A DNA stretch of 64,000 nucleotides from Diprion similis (lineage: Eukaryota; Arthropoda; Insecta; Hymenoptera; Diprionidae), in contig NC_060108.1 of the NCBI RefSeq assembly GCF_021155765.1, positions 23,213,025 to 23,277,024 of the forward strand, read 5' to 3'. The notes under the pieces are model-generated. The model worked only from the letters and a program-made list of their open reading frames with translations. It was not told the DNA's origin and did no database searches. Shown piece after piece: positions 196 through 13,371 of this stretch. The position numbers and the translations under genes are program-made. Within the stretch, counting starts at the first letter, position 1, and every line of letters begins with the position of its first letter.

Positions 196-358
196 TCTGA
201 TTCATATCCGAATGATTTCATTGGAAAACAGACACAACTCAACTCACATGTCATTATTACCTCAGGAACTATACTGTGTATACATTTGCCTTCTGCAATA
301 TCTTATGCAAACATTTTAATACTGTCACTATTTTTAGAAGACTAAGCATTTCGCTTAC

Positions 359-2071
359 CTCGTCATCGTCAATTCCTGGACTCTGATTGTTCTCAATTGG
401 CGTATCCCGCAACGTGCGCCACATCTTGTCAGCAGCCTGTCGTTTAGCAAGTTTCTTGCTTTTTCCAATACCAACTTGTCTGTACTTCAGTATAGAGCAG
501 ACAATGGTGAATTGTCTTTCGTGAGGTAGCCCTTCCTCGCCTTCCATGGTGTATTTTGGTGGAGGCCAGTGATTAGACATGCACATTTCTTGTAACGAAC
601 CAATCGGATTTCCAATGACCTTGTCTTCCCCATAACTTTGCAGTTCCTGAAGATTCTGACCCCTGATATAACGTCACCAATTACTTTATTCTCTGAATCC
701 TTTCCTAGCGCACGAAGGCAACATCTTTCAAAATGAACATTGTGGAATTGCAAAAATGCAGTGTACTTACTCAGATATGCTGTTAGGCAGTGGACCCTCT
801 GATGTTTCAGTGTTTACCCCAATCAGTTTGTCCAGGACTGCTTTAGCTGCAGCGTGTTTTGCCTCCTTCTTAGATCTCCCAGTCCCCATAGCTGAAATGA
901 TTGGATCTGCTTCAATCGTGCAATTCTTTTCGAGTGATTTTATGGATTCGTTCCAAGAGTGCCAGGAGGCAAACATTAATGTGTATATACAGCTTGGCAT
1001 TCATTAACATCTGATTTTTTTCAATTTGAATAATTCTTGATTAGTTGAATGTTTGTTATCGAATTCAACTTTGCAAGGTGATTATAATTTTCGATTTTAC
1101 TTATTTTCATTTCGTCTTATATTCCAATTATTCTTTCACTGATTCTACAAGAGCATTGAAAAGTGTAAAAAAATTATGACAAAGCTTCAGATTAAATCAG
1201 CGTGAAGTGATTTTTTATTTTGTACGTGAAAATAATTAGGAGTATGACAAACATCAAATATGTATCAACTTTAGTGTTGAATAATTTAGTAATGAACTGT
1301 ATTGGGATAGAATATAACATGATTGAAAAAAATCAGCGCTACTTACAATTTCCATTACAAATGGAAGTGGTGAATAGATATTTCAATCCGAGCTACCATG
1401 CTGAGGAAATTGATGTCCAATCATTCATTACATGAAAATAACACTCTCGTTCATTCATACTGGTTGATAAATGTATGAGATAATTGAAAATCATATTAGT
1501 AGTGACTGTGAATTATATTTTCGAAAAACTGTAGAACCACCGCTATCATGCTTGCAAAATTAACTTGCATCAATTATTCGTATTTACTGAATTACATCAA
1601 TGGAAAAACCAAACAAGAAAAAACTATTTGCTAGACCCTTGTATTACGCAAAAGAATTGAATTCTCAATTGATTACTTAAAATTTAATACAGCCAACTAT
1701 TTACTTCAACATTTACACAAACTCTTAGGTGAAAAAATTTATAGGACGTACTAACCCACGACATCAGAGACAGTGACGCGATAACGGAAGGTAGGTTCAT
1801 GTATGGCACCCTCTATTTGTACAAGTTCATATTTTGGAGTGGTGCCTCTGCGTGACAGGAGCTCTTGCAAAACGGAAACTGGAGTTTTAGCAGGCATGGA
1901 CTTCATTTCTAAACGTGCTGCCTCGTCCAATGGTAATGCCTCGGACATAAGAGTGTGCATCGTCACACGATTCCTGCCATGACGATGTACGCTGTTAGGA
2001 TGAATAGTTTGAACCCCAATTCCACTCATCATATTGGGCACGACTTGTTGAGAATGACGCATCTCATCCAT
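359..2071 (-). CDS. loqs: Loquacious (TRBP/PACT-type dsRNA-binding protein), 3' part cut off
   Basis: Loquacious partners Dicer in miRNA and siRNA production in the cytoplasm. Coding exons on the minus strand: 2071-1756, 906-771 and 662-359 (exon acceptor for the first is at 2080, so 9 bases of leader precede the ATG). The joins keep frame and give 252 residues. dsRBD1 spans about residues 62-133, beginning KTPVSVLQELLSRRG and ending in the GTGRSKKEAKHAAAKA helix; dsRBD2 spans about 169-236, with NPIGSLQEMCM, GLPHERQFTI and GKSKKLAKRQAADKMW. Introns have GT donors (gttagt, gtaagt, gtaagc). The third, Dicer-contacting dsRBD expected in full-length Loqs is absent, so the remaining exons must lie left of base 1. 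The start is the first ATG in the exon, with a non-coding 5' exon presumably further right. Identification is firm from the two diagnostic domains; the far 3' structure is not visible. Confidence 0.93.
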
Positions 2072-2080
2072 GTTATTATT

Positions 2081-4859
2081 CTGTAAAATAAAATAATAAT
2101 TATCATTTTATTGAGAAAAATATTTTGCGCAACAACTGAGCTAATATTTAGACATGTGTGCGTTTCTATTTCTCCGACACCAGGTTCAGAGCTTATTGCT
2201 CGACTAAGGTAAATTGAATTTCTTAATCTTAAAACTTGAAAACTTGAAGCATGTATAAAAATTTTTATAGATGAATCAATGTTTCTGTGAGATTGAATTG
2301 CTACCTTTCACTTTTCGATGCATTTTTTTGAAATATTGACGGAAGTGGATTTTTCAATTTTAAACATGAGCTAAAAACAGACTTTCAAATGCACAAATCT
2401 ATATCTGATTTCTGACCCAGAATTGTTGTATTGAAATATCAGAATCAACACGGTTGTCTAATGCCTAACCATAAAGCTAATCCTGCAATTAATGCCAGGG
2501 GTAAGCCACATGCTTCAACGATATCCTTTAGCATCTGACTTACCGATAAGATTAGGGAGTTTAGGAATAATCACTCGACATACCGGTTCAAATATTGCGG
2601 TTTACCGAACTTTAAAACCTGCCGTACCTGGCGATTTATTAACCTAAAAATCAATCTTTCAACACTTTCGTTGTAAAAATTTTACACATCCCGAAAGGCA
2701 GATACGCGAATACTTTCCTAAATTTGACACAAATCGGGATGAGTAAATGTGGAATTGTGGGTGAAAAATCCTGCGGCGAATAGCCGTAGATATCATGCGG
2801 TATTTTTGCGAAGTGACAAGCCGTTGAAGAGCACGCTTGTTGTTTGGCGAAAATAAAGGGGATCGGAATCATACAAGTAGACTGGTTCGTTCGAAACAAA
2901 CATGCGGCAAGTAGGTCGAAGGACAGAAAGTATGCTGGGTTCTACGACGAGGCGTCGAACCCATGAGGTACTTGCCGGTCATTGATCTGAATGAAAGGCG
3001 GTACAAAAATACGTGCGTAGACCTTTGTTATTCAGAGGTGTAAGCAGGTAATAAGATACCGGCGGACGGCCATGTTTGTTATAAAATTTTCATCGATTGA
3101 ATCTTGAATTGGTAAGGATAGACCGGTGCGATGATGCGGGACTGTTGGAGGATGGATAGATAAAGAAAGGCTTGATCTTGAGGGTAACAGAAGTTGCAAA
3201 AGGAACGAAGTAAGGATCTAACGCCCATCGACACGCATCGTGACATCGACCGCTGCTCTCTCAAAGCTGCCACTCGTAGATGTACGTGGATGTGGATCGC
3301 GAAGAGTAGAGGTTCGACGGTGTTATGAGGCTTATACTCACAATTTACCACCAAGCAAAGTGCAGATATCCTGGCTTCTGCGGCTCGCCAATTCCTATGC
3401 GAAAAGCGAATCCCGCTTTTTGTGACCGATCCAAGTCTCACAAAAAGCTTGATCCGTTTGACGACAGAAAAATGGTTTATGGACTACCGGAGAATCCTTC
3501 CTTGTTTGCGGCTCTGCAGCAATATGCTCTCTGCTACATCAGACCTGCGCCGTGAACTTTTGCGCCGCCGGCATGCGCGCTTCGCCCAGGCACCGTACGA
3601 TTATATTCTACGATTATAAGATTATAACTGTCACGATGTTCGCACTGTGAAGCGAGTAGCGGATGTCATTCAGTTCCCAAACAGGTGAACCATGGATTTT
3701 TGTTTTTTTCTGTCATTGCTGGTTGCGAATAATCATGCGTAAAACTGATTGAGCGAATAATATGTAATTCGTGCGTTCTTTGCAATCAGCGTGATCTATG
3801 CGCCGTACTCGATGCGCAAGCCTCAATTTGCCAGGGTGCCAAGTTTTGGTAAACAAAACCGTTGATTGATTACAGCAGAATCGGATAAACAGTGTATCTA
3901 GATAATTTCAGCAAAAACTAGATCCACGTGGGTGTAGGTAATGTAAACAGACTGACTTCAATGAATGTTCACAAGGATGTAGCAGGATCACGGTACTCCA
4001 TGTATATACACTAATATACAGTCACGAATAACGCGCGATGTTTGGTGATAATTAAATCGCTAGTCCCGAATAATAATGCATATTATAACCATTACAATTC
4101 GCTTTTTCAAGTTACAAAATGCGGCGCAGATCGTCTTTTTTCCCACGTGGTTAGGTTAGTGAATCTCAATTACATTTCCATTCGAGGAATTCAAAAATCT
4201 AGGATCTTTAATTGGAAGTGTGACACAGTCGTGGAGAAAATGTAGAAGCGAGATGAAGTACCTGATGGCGTATTCGGACTGCACGCAATCGATTCCTCTC
4301 GCAAAATTACGTCAATATAGTGTATGAAAGAATTGGTTTAAGGATTTTTCAAAATCGACCAAATTTTGACTGAAAAAATCCAAAAGTTAACTTTCTATTA
4401 TTATTTGCGATTTTCAGAACCCGGAAACTTTTCGTCTCAGAATCGTTTTTGCAGGACTCTTTTTCCGCTAATTAAAATAACTGAATATATCTACGCTCAA
4501 GGTATTTTATTCGGCTGGAAGTCGCCAGAAAATTTCAATTGACGCCTGATACCGTGTGCAATGGCAATTTTTCGAACATCTAACCGCGTTGTGCGCAGCT
4601 CGCATAGCATTTCCGACCGGTTGAGAATTGCTTCCGAGCGCGGCGCTGTGTCAGTCGCTTCCGAGCAGCCGTATTGAAGTGACGTGAGCCGCAAGTCGAG
4701 AATTCAGATCGCTACATGCTTCGACTATTCGGAACTTGACCAAAAACCGATAACTTATGTTTAAAAAAAAGGCTGTGTAACGTGATCCGATCAGTGTATT
4801 CCCACGTAACTCACTGTGAATAATATATGAACGACAGTGTATGGCCAATATTAAAAGAA
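2081..4859. other. Non-coding stretch upstream of loqs
   Basis: No gene could be supported here. Open frames between 3079 and 3619 and between 4497 and 4878 overlap one another on both strands, lack splice-consistent partners and resemble no family. The loqs leader exon and promoter should lie somewhere in this stretch but I could not place them. Confidence 0.5.
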
Positions 4860-4860
4860 C

Positions 4861-5621
4861 GGGGTTACTGAAACACAAACAGCAGAGGACATCGAAGGTG
4901 AGTTTCGTGTATCAAGTTTTTATTCTTTTGTGCGGCTTCAGCTTGTAGCGATTTCGATTCTCGACCCTCTGCGTCGGGTGTCGTTTGTTGTTGTTTGTGC
5001 GGCTGATTTTCGGCAAGTGCGTAGTTTCGTTGTTAGCAAGTTTAATTGGTCAGTTTAGACAGGTAACTACAACACAAAAAGTGTGAATAAGCTTGGAATC
5101 GGGTGTAATTATTACGACAACAAACTAAACATTAAACCACCCGCTATGTAGTGAATAAAACTAAAAGGTACACGTTCGATATGATTTTTAATTACTATGT
5201 CATTTTCGATCTTACATGATTTTAGCTGCGGAATAATTTTATGCATTCATTCAATATCTGTTCTTATTTTATTAGCCTGTTATTATTTTCTTATCATATT
5301 TTATTATATTCTCATTGTAGTATGAAAAGTGTGTCACCACCGTACAACCTGAGAAGCCTCGAGGACTACTACACATACATGTGAAGTGTGGAGCCACCCG
5401 GAGGAGGTAAGAAAACTTATTTCAATTATTGTTTGATAATTCGACATGCTGCATTTGAAACCCAATTTTTATCACTGCGTAATATGCGGCAAACAAATAT
5501 GAAAGGAGACAACAGTAATAATGGAAAATCCAGTTTGCTAAATTAATTCGAGCTTCCTCTTTCGTTTTTTCAGAGTTAAGCAGAAACATCCGAGTAACTT
5601 CTCCATTACTCAGCAACGTTG
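4861..5621 (+). ncRNA. Candidate spliced plus-strand transcript (lncRNA or leader exons)
   Basis: Three exon-like blocks follow one another. The first ends at 4897 before gtgagt (its start is not visible). The second, 5321-5406, follows cattgtag and is followed by gtaaga. The third, 5574-5621, follows a strong tract ending tttttcag and is followed by gtgagt. All three donors are close to consensus and the acceptors face the right way, which is unlikely for three consecutive sites by chance. No long open frame joins across them; the middle exon holds a 20-codon ORF. They could be an lncRNA, an mRNA for a small peptide, or leader exons of a gene further right such as ERCC3. No RNA evidence is available. 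Confidence 0.35.
5322..5384 (+). CDS. Candidate 20-codon small ORF in a spliced exon
   Basis: An ATG at the second base of the exon 5321-5406 opens a 20-residue frame that starts MKSVSPPYNL, continues with SLEDYYTYM and stops at TGA 5382-5384, all inside one exon. It is rich in Tyr and Ser with no signal peptide, and does not contain the LDPTGXY motif of the tarsal-less/mille-pattes peptides. Its position within a splice-bounded exon is the only support; it could equally be an upstream ORF or chance. Confidence 0.2.
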   Translation: MKSVSPPYNLRSLEDYYTYM

Positions 5622-7767
5622 GTGAGTTTGCACGTGTTTAGGTTACGGGTGTTAATTCCCTGGGACTCCTTTGTCACGTGGCGTGGCGGTAAAAATTGTT
5701 GCACAAATCTTCGATTTCTTAGCTGCATGGATAGGCTCATTCGCGATCTCGACGGTGCTTGACTTTCAGTCGATTCATTTTCTTTTTTTTCTTTCTTATT
5801 GGAGTTGACCTATTTTACCACAGTTACTCAAAGTTAGAAATTTTGCACGTTGCTGAAAGTGGAATGAGCATCGCGACAGGTTACCATCACTTACTCAACA
5901 TTCACGGAAACAGATTGTATTTAGCTACAGATTATATAATTACAATGATGTTGTTTAAGTGGTGAATAAACCTGAGGTTTAAACATATTCCAAAGATTGT
6001 TTAATTGATAGAGTTTCAAAGTCTGGCAGAACATAACGTAATCAACTTGCATGATATATCTTGAATCATTTTCAATTTTTCAATGACCAGCAACTATCGA
6101 ACAACCACAGGCTTAGCTCGCTTAGAAAAATGCTGATAAGCATACAGGATGTTTTTAATCCATCTTACAAAAGGTTGATGTACCGATAGTCCGCCAGCAA
6201 TCACTAAAACAATACTCTTGCTGACTACGGTACAAAAACGTTTTGCTCCCCACAGGTGATCAGTGAAAAAGTAAGTCACGGTGACCACGGTGCAAATGGG
6301 GAAGAACGATGTGTGTTGGAAAGAATGGAGAATCGTTTAGAGCGAATGTAGGTAATCGGGTAGGTAGGTGGGCGTTGTGGGATCCGTCGCGGGGTTTGAT
6401 GCAGATGTGCGTGTGAATCTCTTTTCAACATTTCCGTTGGGTGGTTCCGTTGGGAATCAGGCGAGGGTAGGAAGGTCGCGATGCACCGTGATGTTATTAA
6501 CTTTTGTAATTCACAGCGTCAAATGATCACAGTGATTTTCATCCAGAAACACGTAAGAGATTGAATATAAGAGTCTTCGAACTATTTATTAGTAAGCTGT
6601 CAAATTTTAACGAGGTTCAATTTCTCATTTCTTGTCACTTTGCTCCATTTTTCAATCCTCATTGAATTTAATTATTTAGTCATGATCTATAATTACTTCA
6701 CTCAATTGATCTCTGTGATCGTCTGACTGGGCAAAACGCATCTCTGGACCATCTATCGCGTTCCGTGGTACGCTAGATGGTAGAGATGCTGAGCTCGAAG
6801 ACTTCGCGTCGAAGAGGACCGCCGACCGTCACGCCACACAATAATGCATGCCCTCCAACCTCCCTCCCAGACTTGACTCGCATCTCGGAACAACAATTCG
6901 CATCGCAATGTGTCGGATTAAAAAAGACGCAGATGCGGATTGGTTTTCTACAGAATTTTGCGACAAGTCCTAGACGTTTAAGATTTTTTTACGGATTAAT
7001 CGGCCGCGCCTTTTTGCGCGTAGATTAATCACGGGAATCAGACGCGTCATTTGCGCGACGATTGAAAATCAAGGTGGTGACTGACCGGAATAGTCGGTAA
7101 CAGTTGGGGAATTTCGTTTATCGGGTAAAGTCAGGGAAGTATGACAGACCATAGGAAAAAACGGGCTTTTTTTTATAAATCTTTTTACTCTTCAGCTATG
7201 CTTCGTAATTTCAGTTGAGCGCCTTTCGCTTGACGATTTTGTAAAAGGTATATAAGAAAGTAAAGCATTTTCGATGTGTCAAGCGGTCAGCTTTTCACTG
7301 AATTTCGTTACCAACAACTGAGGTTTCAAGTTTAAATTGACCGCACCTTTTGTGCGTTGACTTGATACTTTTTGGTTCTGAAAGAAAGCGCGGCATTTGT
7401 AAGCCAGTGGTCAGTTCACAGGGATAAAAATCGCGGAGTGTACAGTGGTGGTGAAATACCTTGTCGTAAGTATATATAAAACATATCTGAGGTGTACGAA
7501 AGTATTTTTTTAGAAATTTTATCGTCTTCTGTTTCGGGGCAACAAGTAATTTTTTTTTAAAGTGTACCGAGAAATAGTCAGTCTTCGTTCGAACAAAACA
7601 TTTATTTTAATAATTTCAAGTTGAAAATTAATTTTGATTCACAATTTTTTTATTTTTTTATTTAATCATAAAAATAATAGAGTAGAAGACTGTTTTCGCA
7701 AATGTTGACTGTGGGCTCGACGTAGTTTTTGTCGGTGCACGCACTATTTGTCATTGTGCTAATCTTA
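5622..7767. other. Non-coding stretch, no gene seen
   Basis: Short open frames (for example 5759-5965 and 6777-7028) show no recognisable domain. A donor-like gtaagt occurs near 7463 after a block that follows ttcacag, so further non-coding exons of the 5-kb transcript are possible, but I cannot define them. Confidence 0.4.
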
Positions 7768-8290
7768 TTTTCATCTGTTTTAGTTAATCAAATCTTTTGT
7801 CTGTTTCAGCTAACCAAACTTTTTGTTTGTTTCAGCTAATGAATCCTTTCTCTGTTTCAGCTAATCAAATCTTTTGTGTGTTTCAGCTAACCAAACTTTT
7901 TGTTTGTTTCAGCTAATGAATCCTTTCTCTGTTTCAGCTAACCAAATCTTTTGTGTGTTTCAGCTAACCAAACTTTTTGTTTGTTTCAGCTAATGATACC
8001 TTTCTCTGTTTCAGTTAATCAAATCTTTTGTGTGTTTCAGCTAACCAAACTTCTTAACTGTTTCAGTCAATCATGCCTTTTGTCTGTTTCAGCAAAACAA
8101 ATTTTTTGACTGTATTAGCTAATCACACCTTTTGTCTGTTCCAGCTAATTAAACCTTTCGTCTGTATCAGTTAATCAAACTTTTTAACTGTTTCAGTTAA
8201 TAATATATACCTCTTGATTGTTTCAGATAACCAAACTTTTTATCTGTTTCAGCAAATAAAATTTTTGACTGTTTCAGCTAATCGAATTAA
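7768..8290 (+). repeat. Tandem array of about 20 splice-acceptor-like units
   Basis: About 20 copies of a 26-27-base unit of the form ctgtttcag-ctaaNcaaaNcttttt run head to tail. Each unit holds a CTAAY element like a branch-point consensus, a T-rich tract and a terminal CAG, the three parts of a 3' splice site. The left part shows a higher-order period of three units (about 79 bases; variants starting ctaatcaa, ctaaccaa and ctaatgaa repeat in order up to about 8040); the right part is more diverged, with changes such as gtattag and gttccag. It lies about 370 bases upstream of the ERCC3 start codon. Confidence 0.85.
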
Positions 8291-8302
8291 GATGTGTTAA
8301 AA

Positions 8303-8383
8303 ATGCTGATCGGAGAAATATTTCTCATCAGGGGGCTTGGCAGAGGACCTTTTTTGAAATGAAATATTTCCCCGATCAACATC
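8303..8383. repeat. Short imperfect hairpin
   Basis: The arm 8303-8324 (atgctgatcggagaaatatttc) pairs with 8361-8382 over 22 positions with two A-C mismatches, leaving a loop of about 36 bases. Size and pairing fit either a small MITE remnant or a pre-miRNA-like hairpin. It directly follows the tandem acceptor array. I recognise no known insect miRNA in either arm. Confidence 0.5.
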
Positions 8384-8663
8384 TGTGATCGAGATGGCTA
8401 CCTAACTTAACATGAAACGTACTTCAAGCCTAATTTCTATGTGCATGACTTCAAGTCATACTTGCAAACTTCAGGTTGTCTGTGAGGTTATGTCAAACCA
8501 GATTCTGTGTTGACTGTTGCCGTTGCCAGTGGGCAGTGCGCCGTGTGCTTTTGAGGTTATTCGTCGATATTTGCATCGAGTGATTTTCCAGTGGCAACGT
8601 CTGACAGCGTCGAATCAGCATACAAATCATTTTTCCTGTTTCTAATTTTTAAGCGGAGCTATC

Positions 8664-13371
<4,708 letters not shown>

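Follow-up and report, generated by a model that had tools for sequence, protein, structure and literature searches.

A tandem array of acceptor-like units upstream of ERCC3 in Diprion similis is a module of a dispersed, probably spliced repeat element

The window, i.e., the whole stretch of 64,000 nucleotides of Diprion similis DNA that was analysed, contains a gene with its start codon at 8664 that the original prediction had named ERCC3. This identity was confirmed by a match to XPB (E 5e-9) and by the Pfam family ERCC3_RAD25_C. A tandem array on the strand of ERCC3 precedes the start codon by about 0.4 kb and is part of a copy of a repeat element. The copy sits between ERCC3 and a gene for a Loquacious-like double-stranded-RNA-binding protein, which lies beyond the element at window 269-2107 on the minus strand, divergent from ERCC3, and was recognized by dsrm matches in three open frames and by a match to Loquacious in the PDB. 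The main features upstream of ERCC3 are as follows.

4142..8381, plus strand: copy of a dispersed long repeat element, subfamily A, cut at both ends (limits of homology to other copies)
4142..4279, plus strand: residual left inverted terminal repeat (matches 695-829 of copy L055 and, inverted, 6379-6261)
7768..8287, plus strand: 26-bp minisatellite, majority unit CTAATCAAACCTTTTGTCTGTTTCAG
8303..8382, plus strand: remains of a long post-array hairpin, its outer 3' arm cut off in the window copy

Tandem-repeat analysis described the array at two periods, i.e., 26 bp at 7774-8287 (19.8 copies, 72% matches) and 77 bp at 7769-8281 (82% matches). Wrap-around alignment to the cyclic unit gave 20 full 26-bp units within 7768-8287, in agreement with the roughly 20 units that had been predicted. 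The predicted three-unit higher-order period on the left was also recovered, both as the 77-bp period and as identical 26-mers at 77-bp steps, which were found in the units ending 7835, 7912, and 7989 and, as a second pair, in those ending 7860 and 7937. The differences among the units ending 7886, 7963, and 8040 are confined to their first five bases. Each unit had further been read as a complete acceptor module, which held only in part: all 20 full window units end in AG, but CTAAY was found in 12 of the 20, and the complete module, defined as CTAAY, at least 10 pyrimidines in 14 positions, and YAG, likewise in 12 of the 20. Across 29 other copies, 525 of 801 units carry the complete module under the same definition. 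All 20 window units have a G at unit position 20, inside the pyrimidine tract, which does not need it.

Scoring of the units with a splice-site model, as had been suggested, was carried out with a rough acceptor matrix built from 13 ERCC3 acceptors read off this window. The AGs of the 20 window units scored from -1.1 to 7.8, compared with 0.0 to 8.0 (median 4.9) for the 13 true sites when each was left out in turn, and 12 of the 20 scored at least 3.2, the third lowest value of the true sites. The true median was reached by 8 of 21 AGs in the array stretch and by 392 of 6316 elsewhere in the window, and no other 523-bp stretch on a single strand had more than seven such AGs, against eight in the array. 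The array thus resembles a set of acceptors without being extreme; judged by sequence, its units are fair, not exceptional, acceptors. In post hoc tests, the CTRAY-tract-YAG arrangement arose on tandemising in 0.37% of random 26-mers drawn from the window and in 1.6% of shuffled units (200,000 of each).

A search of the species' own 269-Mb assembly with the array as the query returned 100 matches, the window's own copy included, which merged by eye into about 36 loci on 12 contigs. The surroundings of the array are dispersed as well: the left flank (7400-7767) had at least 58 matches and positions 4300-5660 at least 64, own copy included in both cases, and for 6700-6870 the best 40 of 109 candidates were scored, i.e., the own copy and 39 others that were 96-99% identical. 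Homology to the other copies starts at about 4142 (earliest 4138) and ends at 8381, so the window copy is a 4.2-kb piece of a longer element. The segment 8382-8640, beside ERCC3, had no other match in the assembly search, and the repeat therefore does not reach ERCC3. Almost certainly, the array is a tandem module, variable in its number of units, of a long dispersed element that is present in many copies and has no long open frames.

One full copy, L055 (C3:6649200-6656500), spans 5,956 bp and has inverted ends of about 250 bp (563-811 and 6518-6264, 77% identical), as a DNA transposon or foldback element does; it is the only long copy in which both inverted ends were read. The element ends read GGCTGGATTTTCAC in several copies, and L055 is flanked by a possible 3-bp duplication, AAA, a weak signal from the single long copy with both ends read. 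In the window copy, the outer 130 bp or so of the left inverted terminal repeat are missing or diverged. By position, about 14 of the 40 terminal-repeat hits scored, counting that in the window, mark the left end of element bodies, and among the remaining scored hits, others bound short elements. Inverted pairs of the same terminal repeat were also observed close together (L055:5883-6518, L020:2526-3007, and L067:781-1717), either alone or at the right end of a long element; these may be MITE relatives.

No open frame of 200 aa or more was found in the window element, and the longest frames in L030 and L044 were 128 and 96 aa, respectively. A protein-coding core was not supported, considering that the longest stop-free stretch in the core of seven copies is 109 codons and that indels occur between copies; these checks covered a few copies, and a gene of short spliced coding exons would escape them. 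In a narrow test of viral origin, one exact 26-base pattern taken from hairpin hp1 (described below) had no match in viral_contigs.

The copies read, which were cut out by tools or fetched individually and form a non-random sample, fall into two subfamilies, A (the window type) and B. Over 5619-7065, identity to the window is 75-78% in twelve of the 13 B copies, and the thirteenth, L035, matches the window in two pieces (75% and 82%). L003/L026 (C11) is intermediate between the subfamilies, with L026 counted as A, and some locus identifiers denote parts of one copy (L040 and L056; L011 and L050). The ends of subfamily B were not found in the copies read. Head-to-tail copies were observed in L029-L031 (C2:5883000-5911000; period 7,119 bp, 99.7-99.96% identical), on C1 at about 10214000-10275000 (period about 10,268 bp), and at C2:7618468-7635684 (period about 8,523 bp), which reflects either recent local amplification or an assembly effect. 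Near window position 7220, L030 and L044 contain roughly 3.6-3.8 kb of inserted sequence with 8-bp tandem repeats, CTCGATCA / ACTGGATC, at L030:830-917 and 4088-4191 and at L044:3985-4082 and 7377-7500.

The following splice sites and putative exons were compared between copies.

4898..4899, plus strand: donor AAG/GTGAGT (GT in all 8 copies, GTGAGT in 7)
5321..5406, plus strand: predicted exon 2 (limits putative), ending at donor GAG/GTAAGA
5574..5621, plus strand: predicted exon 3 with conserved ends, preceded by TTTTTTCAG and followed by GTGAGT
6256..6270, plus strand: possible 15-nt microexon (exon putative), acceptor ACAG, donor GTAAGT
6952..6953, plus strand: acceptor TTTTCTACAG (AG in 27 of 27 other copies)
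7466..7467, plus strand: donor GTAAGT, subfamily A only (the site placed at 7463 in the original prediction)

Upstream donors had been placed at 4898, 5407, and 5622, and the conservation of all three in A-type copies bears this out, with 72/73 (98.6%), 80/81 (98.8%, nine copies), and 90/90 (100%) bases identical, respectively. In subfamily B, the 4898 donor has no counterpart in the copies read, and the 5407 site is not kept (57/72 bases); exon 3 is largely missing from B, together with the preceding intron, and despite this loss the 5622 donor is kept there in 113/114 bases. Around the exon 3 acceptor, 98/100 bases (98%) are identical in A over 5566-5575, a range offset by one base from the site itself. 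Among 9-mers with enough copies, these donor and acceptor sites fall between the 92nd and 96th percentiles. A further donor, perhaps at 7463, stood for subfamily A, in which GTAAGT near 7466 is present in 12/13 copies, but not for B (0/11 copies); in the nine-base identity comparison, the 9-mer taken for this donor, 7461-7469, is offset two bases from the true site.

Acceptors other than the array were also kept. The AG of the acceptor at 6255 is present in 25/25 other copies (12/12 A, 13/13 B), and the donor GT that follows it in 18/18 sequences. The acceptor at 6953 is present in 14/14 A and 13/13 B copies, with mean scores of 6.7 (A) and 4.9 (B), and the acceptors at 6147 and 6516 have AG in 25/25 other copies each. 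The array as the sole acceptor for the 5622 donor was rejected, because AG at 6255 and at 6953 is intact throughout the copies read. The identity of the 4898, 5407, and 5622 donors in A copies (98.6-100%), compared with 77-94% in their flanks at 10-60 bp (77-83% for the 4898 donor), suggests that the element probably gives, or once gave, a spliced transcript. That the array is used to a real extent as an acceptor in this transcript is a more tentative proposal, which we would sooner doubt than assert.

The arrays of the 29 other copies (16 A and 13 B) range from 4 to 52 full units, with 223 units in A and 578 in B. In A arrays, AG is intact in 203/223 units, rank 2 of 25 dinucleotides, and tract changes that stay pyrimidine outnumber those that do not (242 vs 113); spacer purines, by contrast, show 37 transitions vs 49 transversions. 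In B arrays, AG is intact in 476/578 units, rank 15 of 25, with the pairs TT, AT, and AA ranking above it, and the corresponding tract changes number 556 vs 463. AG ranks 12 of 25 in both subfamilies together (679/801 units) and 1 (tied) in the window alone. Considering that the units of one array are copies of one another, these changes are not independent events, and the signal for retention of the array as acceptors appears, from these counts, mixed between A and B. AG is present in the first full unit of 27/29 other copies and in the last of 29/29, the latter value (about 0.02 against the set means) being partly built in by the local-alignment end and not relied upon. Beyond the array, 8288-8381 of the A-type window had no match in the B copy L032 and none at B loci among 10 other hits; an exon common to both subfamilies was therefore not seen there. 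In seven other A-type copies (L010-L016), the array is followed by a hairpin with 39 predicted pairs.

Mean identity between five A sequences (window included) and 13 B sequences was 93% at 6695-6865, 89% at 5622-5760 and at 6261-6535, 87% at 5841-5895, 82% at 6130-6260, and 81% at 6866-6975. The spacers were less alike, with 61% at 5761-5840, 72% at 5896-6129, 71% at 6536-6694, and 65% at 6976-7065; because the block limits were drawn after the alignment had been seen, the contrast between blocks and spacers is somewhat favored. Such conservation of the blocks exceeds what would be expected of an inert repeat, which counts against our preferred reading below. Three hairpins lie within them.

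6168..6245, plus strand: hp2, pre-miRNA-like hairpin (18 sequences, window included; 22 pairs)
6739..6788, plus strand: hp1, hairpin with conserved loop (28 sequences, 97% mean column identity)
6894..6942, plus strand: hp4, hairpin (28 sequences, 27 distinct)

Hairpin hp1 is in the 93% block, hp2 in the 82% block, and hp4 in the 81% block. In hp1 (18 distinct sequences among the 28), 99.1% of cells pair and two-sided changes occur in 2 of 18 pairs; its covariation score was reached by 0 of 500 shuffles, its two-sided pair count by 59, and its pair-type count by 482, and much of the covariation signal is one A/B difference. In hp4, which is 99.1% paired with two-sided changes in 2 of 12 pairs, the covariation score was reached by 4 of 500 shuffles, the two-sided pair count by 365, and the pair-type count by 379. 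The 18 sequences of hp2 have near-invariant arms, as the hairpin of a microRNA gene does, a loop of variable length, and zero two-sided changes. Single-strand folds around hp1 and hp2 lie 3.2 and 4.6 standard deviations, respectively, below mononucleotide shuffles. A comparison of 2500-9000 with Rfam 15, from which a lineage-specific family would be absent, gave no match at E up to 1. RNA structure at the hairpins is likely, not proven, and arm-to-arm conversion in the DNA could yield the same pattern. The blocks and three hairpins in 5622-6975 are more surprising than the array itself.

Our preferred reading, to which we give a probability of about 0.7, is that the array is a module of a dispersed, probably spliced element, in which it is possibly one acceptor among several, and that its nearness to ERCC3 is incidental. 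The ERCC3-side locus would have inherited the array along with the element copy at 4142-8381. The number of units would shift through unequal exchange or slippage, and the units would be homogenised within each copy. The element, with conserved exon ends of its own, is probably transcribed and spliced, and in A-type copies its transcript may use the array units as acceptors for the donor at 5622 or the one near 7466, the array being one of several acceptors there.

The original prediction instead suggested that the array could be a splicing decoy, sponge, or source of alternative acceptors that tunes ERCC3, or could damp transcription into it. The position of the array on the same strand shortly before the start codon, its acceptor-like units, and the conserved donors upstream agree with this proposal. 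However, the same repeat occurs genome-wide, with the array at about 35 other loci, and the element copy is cut at both ends, its homology stopping at 8381, before 8664, with 8382-8640 having no other match. We do not uphold a decoy, alternative-acceptor, or damping role, and the tuning of ERCC3 is highly improbable; an effect by read-through is conceivable, but it is unsupported here and we give it hardly any weight. The array units may also be DNA- or RNA-protein-binding sites whose acceptor look is a by-product, candidates being, for example, TAAT-type homeodomain sites or sites for a transposition protein. The retention of positions that splicing does not need, such as G20 in all window units, and the pairs that rank above AG in B speak for such sites, but the array is internal and away from the element ends, and we find this explanation quite unlikely.

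The family might also be explained as a functional non-coding gene present in many copies, of either host or selfish nature; it would produce hairpin RNAs, and its last intron would end in the array as a redundant set of 3' splice sites. This account shares ground with our preferred reading, to which it adds function. It draws on the conserved donors at 4898, 5407, and 5622 in A, on the A arrays, in which AG ranks second and tract changes favor pyrimidines while spacer purines behave otherwise, on the conserved hairpins hp1, hp2, and hp4, and on blocks of 87-93% identity between subfamilies against spacers of 61-72%. In B, however, AG ranks only 15 of 25, the donor near 7466 is lacking, and 8288-8381 finds no match in L032 or at B loci among the 10 other hits. 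The acceptors other than the array are better kept, two-sided changes are few, with one A/B difference behind much of the hp1 signal, and two of five measures do not exceed shuffles. On balance, we regard this gene as somewhat unlikely. In its boldest form, which we consider unlikely, some 40 to 100 non-coding loci, dispersed and in places tandem, would be maintained by selection as a possibly selfish gene family whose spliced transcripts carry conserved hairpin RNAs; a self-homogenising set of 4-52 redundant 3' splice sites would close the last intron.

For a minisatellite carried by a repeat element, the array is nothing out of the ordinary. The unusual part is a family without long open frames that keeps splice sites and blocks at 87-93% against spacers at 61-72% between subfamilies, a pattern that calls for a function, perhaps at the RNA level. 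The ingredients are all known singly from elsewhere; we found no precedent in the open-licence literature for their combination or for the conserved blocks, nor any report there of an acceptor-unit minisatellite within a repeat element. Intronic microRNA host genes are one system with which the element can be compared. The near-invariant arms and variable loop of hp2 resemble them, whereas the conserved loop of hp1 and the lack of an Rfam match at E up to 1 do not.

Tetris, a foldback transposon of Drosophila virilis (PMC4079207), is likewise apparently non-autonomous, with internal tandem repeats that expand and inverted ends shared with a MITE. Its repeats are about 220 bp long and lie inside the inverted ends, whereas the unit here is 26 bp long and internal, beside conserved donors and hairpins. 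In the human ABCA7 intron 18 VNTR, the 25-bp minisatellite unit carries a splice site, and retention of one unit is visible in RNA (PMC5954066). The ABCA7 unit carries a donor, in one human gene, whereas the present unit is acceptor-like by sequence and lies in a dispersed repeat. An engineered Ds gene trap in barley is also a mobile element with consecutive acceptors, branch point, and T-tract; it is synthetic and has three sites, unlike the array. In that study (PMC2647555), 14 transcripts had used the first acceptor and three the second; an eleven-fold preference for the first over the others is quoted there from earlier work. By analogy, the dominance of the first acceptor suggests that the 20 sites of the array would be largely redundant. 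Ready acceptors carried to many loci would offer a natural test bed for the choice of the spliceosome among equal 3' sites.
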